From Leptotrichia wadei (GTDB taxonomy: Bacteria > Fusobacteriota > Fusobacteriia > Fusobacteriales > Leptotrichiaceae), in the NCBI RefSeq assembly GCF_007990545.2, contig NZ_AP019829.2, positions 1,984,001-2,048,000 of the forward strand: a DNA stretch of 64,000 nucleotides, given 5' to 3'. Under the pieces are notes generated by a model. It did not search any database. It saw only the letters and a program-made list of their open reading frames with translations, and had not been told where the DNA came from. Positions 13,071-13,340 of this stretch are shown piece by piece. A program made the position numbers and the translations under genes. The stretch's first letter is position 1; the number at the start of each line of letters is the position of its first letter.

Positions 13071-13340
13071 GTGTGTTAGAACACTCGTGGCTTTGGCCAT
13101 GAGATGAATAACACCAACATTGAAAATGTTGCTTTAAAATTTGCAATATTACTAATATATTTGGGTTTAAAATATAATATATAGATAAAAAGTAGCAGTG
13201 TAGACATAATGTCTTATCTAGTAGCGGCTATTGTGGACTAGACAAAAAGAATAAGGATTTTAAAATCAAACTTCTTAGAAGATAACTTACTTTTTCAGTT
13301 ATCTTATGAAGCTCTCGACTTTTAGTCGTGAGTAGTTCAC
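13071..13340 (+). mobile_element. IS200/IS605-type non-autonomous element (ends only, no tnpA/tnpB)
   Basis: About 270 bp. The left part has an imperfect hairpin CTCGTGGC-TTTG-GCCATGAG (13084-13103) followed by ATGAAT. The right part ends with an imperfect hairpin (13312-13333) and TAGTTCAC. The complete element at 57-58.7 kb has the same signposts: a left-end hairpin followed by GAGATGAAT, and a right end of hairpin plus GAGTAGTTCAC. Ends without genes are characteristic of palindrome-associated (PATE/MITE-like) derivatives. The exact left boundary is not fixed. Confidence 0.65.
13190..13340 (+). ncRNA. Orphan omega-RNA-like scaffold
   Basis: The 3' part reads GAAGCTCTCGAC, loop, GTCGTGAGTAGTTCAC, the arrangement of TnpB guide-RNA (omega-RNA) 3' ends, in which the last bases abut the element border and the next ~16 nt act as guide (here from 13341). 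A second hairpin, AGATAACT / AGTTATCT (about 13280-13304), lies before it. No tnpB is adjacent. RNA function is inference from similarity of layout; a tnpB elsewhere in the genome could use it. Confidence 0.5.

Follow-up and report, generated by a model that had tools for sequence, protein, structure and literature searches.

A solitary omega-RNA gene within a small mobile IS200/IS605-type element of Leptotrichia wadei

A 64,000-nucleotide stretch of the Leptotrichia wadei genome (the window; contig NZ_AP019829.2, positions 1,984,001 to 2,048,000) contains a 273-bp mobile element, here called the orphan, that has IS200/IS605-type ends and the scaffold of a TnpB guide RNA (omega-RNA) and lacks a nuclease gene. 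In autonomous IS200/IS605 elements, TnpA inserts the element on the 3' side of a short target sequence. TnpB, acting with an RNA from the right end, cuts this target plus its flank and so restores lost copies (PMC8612924, PMC11870625). The reading we favour is that the orphan is probably a non-autonomous IS200/IS605 transposon, of the miniature inverted-repeat transposable element (MITE) or palindrome-associated transposable element (PATE) type, whose sole payload would be an omega-RNA gene and which would borrow both TnpA and TnpB in trans.

Results

The orphan is a mobile element with six copies

Six copies of the element (family 1) were found at six unrelated sites: the window copy, one at 1.44 Mb in the same genome (L002), three in the sister species G002 and one in genome G004. 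The five sister copies measure 285-287 bp, at 92-94% identity to the window copy. All six follow TTTAT, have a common left end and terminate in GAGTAGTTCAC on the right. When the flanks on either side of the window copy are joined, the resulting 360 bp are found uninterrupted in G002 at 99.4% identity; the empty site there reads TTTAT directly followed by TATACATCTATC, or by TATACATC in a longer reading. Near-exact empty sites for four other copies are present in other genomes of the genus. The insertions are precise and without target duplication. The original prediction had placed a 270-bp element at 13071-13340; the element is real and its extent was right to 3 bp, the empty site putting the start at 13068. 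Because six copies share their ends and have clean empty sites, the orphan is a mobile element with precise boundaries and not a chance resemblance, and its copies have recently moved in three related bacteria. A solo 3' fragment inserted by one-ended transposition, or a lone sequence convergence with no defined mobile element behind it, would account for the small size of the orphan and for nothing else listed here; identical end types in six copies and clean empty sites refute this explanation, to which we assign practically no probability. Family 1 has no further members in 98 genomes searched across the phylum, and no viral contig contains the orphan core.

Folds, the six-copy alignment and the list of open reading frames (ORFs) agree with the predicted layout of IS200/IS605 left and right hairpins with no tnpA, tnpB or other transposase gene inside. 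The orphan strand folds better than 200 of 200 shuffles (z=-3.6 for the RNA fold, -5.2 for the DNA fold). Its first 57 bp are ~80% identical to the left ends of TnpB/IStron elements at 112.2 kb and 224.6 kb, and its right portion is 68-72% identical to elements encoding TnpB of 417 aa. The end motifs GAGATGAAT (13101-13109, on the left-end side) and GAGTAGTTCAC (13330-13340, closing the right end) had been thought to recur on the intact element of the window. This holds for GAGTAGTTCAC, which occurs exactly twice in the window, on the orphan and at 56973-56983 of the intact element, with 0.00 occurrences expected by chance; GAGATGAAT alone is not significant (three found versus 1.04 expected). 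IS200/IS605 elements of many phyla end in the tail GAAGCTC...GTGAGTAGTTCAC, and the generality of this right end explains why the two elements share it.

The orphan carries a TnpB-type omega-RNA scaffold

We built a covariance model, R1, from an alignment of 21 TnpB-linked 3' ends, with the orphan copies excluded. The TnpB genes concerned are of the 417-aa type and come partly from this genus, partly from viral contigs; the proteins that they encode are 49-100% identical. R1 matches 13188-13340 with 76.9 bits (E=2.8e-14), end to end over all 165 model positions (1-165); the other five family-1 copies score 83.6-85.1 bits, and TnpB-linked and family-2 copies (see below) in the genus 115-152 bits. 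The covariance search that the original prediction had proposed thus returned a match, and the guide RNA layout expected of the 3' part was borne out.

No orphan copy contributed to the consensus structure, which the orphans nevertheless maintain through double-sided substitutions. Three column pairs that are invariant in the 21 TnpB-linked RNAs are doubly changed in the orphans (10-36 GC to AU, 11-35 UA to GC, 46-57 GC to UA), and pair 15-31 is changed from GC to AU. In the joint alignment 99.3% of cells are paired, with double changes at 11 of 18 pairs versus 5.4 in shuffles; the covariation exceeds that of 500 of 500 shuffles and of every control with slid partners, in which the signal disappears. 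At the position of the 9-bp stem (Table 1), inspection of the alignment found a stem in the TnpB-linked relatives too, of entirely different sequence. These comparisons are strong evidence that the orphan derives from a TnpB guide RNA of the ~417-aa subfamily and that its sequence took shape in that role. The orphan has no credible Rfam match at gathering or permissive thresholds, and none to the group I intron core. Because no linked tnpB lies upstream, the orphan is a solitary omega-RNA and not a TnpB locus.

Resident 417-aa TnpB proteins are the candidate partners

In the host genome 23 TnpB genes exceed the Pfam cut-off, and most of them fall into a ~365-aa or a ~417-aa family. Four intact genes belong to the ~417-aa family and lie at TTTAT as well, and TTTAT precedes the left ends of 417-aa TnpB elements in 18 of 18 strict matches. 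This pentamer is the presumed transposon-adjacent motif (TAM) of the 417-aa TnpB; with TTTAT common to both kinds of element, an orphan donor site would carry the right TAM for these proteins. The genome search for related tnpB 3' ends, also proposed at the outset, succeeded at 113, 189, 539 and 2195 kb of the host genome. Judged by their motifs alone, since no PDB chain matched the 417-aa TnpB in a sequence search, the resident TnpBs appear to have intact catalytic residues. A scan of a collection of genome contigs with the TnpB alignment gave no confirmed relative. A tnpB pseudogene at 1704 kb of the host genome (L341, G000:C1) has several stops and a well-preserved omega-RNA (129.9 bits with R1), and is a further candidate source of guides in trans.

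The window itself encodes a 365-aa TnpB (57.1-58.2 kb) in an intact element with which the orphan has the GAGATGAAT and GAGTAGTTCAC end motifs in common, so that the orphan RNA might work with this neighbour. The R1 match of that element is restricted to 29 bits at the right end, upstream of which the scaffolds are unrelated; its TnpB is 26% identical to the 417-aa family, and its left flank is TTTAA on inspection, not TTTAT. We therefore regard this partnership as very improbable, and the surmise that the orphan scaffold comes from another TnpB subfamily than the window's own proved correct, the subfamily being the ~417-aa one. The intact element is a possible source of TnpA, not of a matching TnpB. 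Four intact TnpA genes are present in the host genome, and the orphan is most likely mobilised by TnpA acting in trans.

The empty site fixes the right-end boundary, and it is there that the scaffold stops and flanking DNA takes up the guide position; the uninterrupted G002 site agrees with the guide position predicted from 13341 onwards. A guide placed in this way could also have been adopted by the host as a regulatory RNA that targets a chromosomal gene through a TnpB or through a TnpB-like protein that is inactive, and TnpB-derived repressors with guide RNAs do exist (TldR, mentioned in PMC13418256). For the window copy, a regulatory role elsewhere is unlikely: allowing two mismatches, guide plus TAM match nothing else in the host genome, and across 13 genomes the G002 empty site alone is an exact match. 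Guides moreover differ at every copy, and by motif the resident TnpBs appear catalytically intact. Host adoption is, in our judgement, a far-fetched explanation.

A promoter precedes the omega-RNA in sister copies and is damaged in the window copy

In the 80 bp between left end and scaffold, the five sister copies have TTGCAA-17-TATAAT, ending 31 nt 5' of the scaffold; it was found by a promoter scan of the intact copy L002, which was compared with a scan of the window copy. The window copy has a 13-bp deletion between short TAAT repeats, with its junction at 13152/13153 where the sister copies have TAATTTTAGAGTA, and the 17-bp spacing to TATAAT is lost. A C-to-A change at 13242, found in the window copy only, breaks the pair with G13227 in helix 3. 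The window copy is the most damaged of the six, and with its promoter spacing destroyed and one scaffold pair broken it is probably a decaying member of the family. The relic status offered as an alternative in the original prediction agrees with the state of this copy, whereas the family taken together looks intact; the six mobile copies, the sister-copy promoter and the two lesions of the window copy all go beyond that prediction. Among the six copies, paired sites have undergone eight substitution events, of which seven are transitions that keep the pair as a G-U wobble and one (13242) breaks it. Seven pair-keeping transitions out of seven, where half would be expected under neutrality, is suggestive (about 0.008).

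The window copy starts 26 bp past the stop codon of a bioY-like gene, in sense, and may be transcribed by read-through from it. Five of the six family-1 copies lie in sense within or beside a host gene (L001, L002, L048, L049, L068), a position that would permit read-through, and six copies are too few for a test. One of these (L049, G004:C1:1738 kb) sits within the start codon of a gene of phosphotransferase system (PTS) type (TTTTTAT/G, the slash marking the insertion), splitting the ribosome-binding site from the coding region; another (L048, G002:C1:580 kb) interrupts a Sel1-like-repeat reading frame whose joined flanks are in frame.

A second solitary family has the same layout

R1 also found eight copies of a second solitary element (family 2; about 314 bp, five genomes) without a tnpB gene, laid out as left end, 40-bp segment, last tnpB codons, scaffold and right end. 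The 40-bp segment has an extended TATAAT box and is ~90% identical to the region directly upstream of intact tnpB genes, a likeness from which we conclude that in family 2 a deletion fused the tnpB promoter to the omega-RNA. In the copy of the host genome (761 kb) TATAAT is lost. Each of the five genomes that carry solitary copies also has intact 417-aa TnpB genes. That a layout of left end, promoter, omega-RNA and right end originated twice independently argues that it was kept for a reason. That promoter-driven solitary omega-RNA transposons arose at least twice in the genus, as a distinct selfish class which parasitises TnpB retention and in which each copy writes its own guide by inserting and then relies on TnpB in trans for being copied back, is a proposal whose chances we put at about even.

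The 761-kb omega-RNA ends 17 bp 5' of an S-adenosylmethionine (SAM) riboswitch (RF00162, L009 1601-1716), so that its guide region abuts the riboswitch; the gene behind (L009 1934-3085) reads as metK. As for the family-1 promoter segment, its closest matches in the genus are regions directly upstream of genes, including a DUF262-like gene and asd (names from translations). Capture from the DUF262-like gene was dropped as a firm claim, since the same motif precedes several unrelated genes, and was weakened further by family 2, in which such a segment can be a simply retained tnpB promoter.

Two end-only remnants were also noted. At 1947.9 kb of the host genome (L112, G000:C1, minus strand), ~46 bp of fused IStron-family left and right ends follow TTTAT directly upstream of the promoter of a DUF262-like gene, and the G003 ortholog is without the remnant. 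At L062, downstream of the element copy and ~100 bp from it, lies an end-only remnant of the 365-aa TnpB family (AACAAAAAGATAGCAAGAAGTCTCCCGCTTCTAAAAGCGGGAGTAGTTCAC).

Family 2 and the remnants bear on whether the orphan is a pure relic, that is, a mobilisable element whose omega-RNA is inert and is carried along through its overlap with the right end that TnpA needs. The promoter deletion and the broken pair of the window copy fit such a relic, as does a right-end hairpin that serves both functions; PATEs are common in Haloquadratum, where none is credited with an RNA function (PMC3119063), and ~46-bp end-only remnants exist in the genus. Those same remnants show that a small element does not need the 153-nt scaffold, which was kept together with a promoter in two independently formed families, and helices outside the ends keep pairing. 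We consider a pure relic unlikely, though well worth weighing.

Table 1. Coordinates of the orphan element, its parts and related features (window positions unless a locus is named)
Feature	Position	Strand	Basis or remark
Complete non-autonomous element	13068..13340	+	273 bp; six-copy alignment and empty site
TTTAT target site, presumed TAM	13063..13067	+	5' of all six copies; boundary set by G002 empty site
Left-end hairpin CTCGTGGCTTTGGCCATGAG, then ATGAAT	13084..13103	+	RNA/DNA folds; similarity to TnpB/IStron left ends
Promoter remains	13141..13152	+	-35 TTGCAA at 13141-13146; six-copy alignment
Omega-RNA scaffold	13188..13340	+	R1 match, 153 nt
Scaffold helices 1 and 2	13197-13198/13218-13219; 13202-13206/13210-13214	+	compensatory GC to AU, UA to GC and GC to AU versus TnpB-linked set
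Scaffold helix 3, GGCTA/TAGAC	13226-13230 with 13239-13243	+	pair counts
Scaffold helices 4 and 5, AAGAA/TTCTT around GATTTTAAAATC	13247..13276	+	R1 consensus structure and pair counts
9-bp scaffold stem AAGATAACT / AGTTATCTT	13279..13305	+	fold
Right-end hairpin, then AGTTCAC end	13312..13332	+	fold and six-copy alignment
Presumed guide TATACATCTATCTAAA, flanking DNA	13341..13356	+	begins exactly at element boundary
Host gene, reads as bioY-type biotin transporter	12448..13041	+	ORF list; upstream of element, same orientation
Intact IS200/IS605 element, same end motifs	56973..58690	-	TnpB 365 aa 57087-58184; TnpA 131 aa 58189-58584
Family-2 loci	L009 1299-1601 (G000:C1:761 kb); L070; L054; L336-L340

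Discussion

The sequence comparisons support the overall reading of the original prediction, that of an orphan omega-RNA-like element which could use a TnpB of another subfamily encoded elsewhere. We propose that a ~417-aa TnpB element would have lost its tnpB frame and kept the left end, promoter, omega-RNA scaffold and right end. TnpA supplied in trans would move the element by single-strand excision and insertion 3' of TTTAT, and the element's own promoter or a neighbouring gene would drive a transcript consisting of the scaffold and the flanking guide. A 417-aa TnpB could then load this RNA in trans and, upon excision, cut the re-sealed donor site of TTTAT plus flank, after which recombination would restore the element.

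Several points weigh against this proposal. Even the nearest TnpB-linked scaffolds in the host genome reach only about 68-72% identity to the orphan, whose true parent TnpB was not found; the divergence of the orphan scaffold suggests that the direct parent is absent from the resident genes, and cross-recognition of the orphan RNA by a resident TnpB is assumed. The other element family accounts for every full TnpA gene here. Five of the seven pair-keeping substitutions fall in the right-end hairpin, which TnpA also needs, and variable sites per site in the scaffold (0.065) are not clearly fewer than in the linker (0.098) across the six copies. The orphan is present in three of seven TnpB-positive and none of six TnpB-negative genomes, numbers too small to show dependence. 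Transcription, TnpB loading, cutting, retention and the acting TnpA are steps that we infer from sequence.

As an element, the orphan is a PATE. Like the PATEs of Haloquadratum walsbyi (PMC3119063), it has IS605-type near-terminal palindromes, is transposase-free and multi-copy, and makes strain-specific insertions without target duplication; one of them, HqIRS71, also retains the 3' coding part of tnpB. PATEs differ in their archaeal host and were described before omega-RNAs were known, with no omega-RNA structure or promoter demonstrated (PMC3119063). As an RNA, the orphan groups by its sequence with the 417-aa TnpB omega-RNAs, from which it differs in lacking the linked gene. It resembles the ISDra2 TnpB right-end element RNA (reRNA; PMC8612924), a ~150-nt RNA from the tnpB 3' end and right end plus ~16 nt of flank, in a system where the TAM equals the TnpA target; that RNA comes from its own tnpB element, whereas the orphan has no linked tnpB. 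The stand-alone omega-RNAs of IscB, cited in PMC9581776, likewise have a gene apart from the nuclease and act in trans, as the orphan would. Their partner is IscB and their scaffold is unrelated, in contrast to the orphan RNA, which lies within a two-ended mobilisable element. In the literature covered, which is incomplete, we found no published bacterial TnpB-type solitary omega-RNA with its own promoter inside a mobile element.

If the proposal is correct, a whole family of elements draws on TnpB in common, and mobile cassettes of guide RNA become a plausible step from TnpB transposons to CRISPR-like systems with guides apart from the nuclease. Natural pairs make cis- versus trans-action of TnpB omega-RNAs directly testable.

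Persistence after gene loss is also known from the ORF-less variants of BcISt1, which have lost both ORFs (PMC4227781). These are IS607-type IStrons that keep their intron and occur at orthologous loci only, and hence were inherited vertically and not dispersed, unlike the orphan. Closer at hand are the IStrons LbISt1 of Leptotrichia buccalis and FnISt1/2 of Fusobacterium (PMC4227781). The resident 417-aa elements have the orphan's left end, TTTAT target and scaffold class, and are putative relatives of LbISt1; the orphan differs from IStrons in having neither intron nor ORF. The relative at 224.6 kb (L004) matches the group I intron model RF00028 at L004 1560-1908 with 46 bits (gathering threshold 50). 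This intron was missed by a whole-locus Rfam scan and found only when a 611-bp stretch was scanned, and IStrons of the L004 type may be under-annotated.
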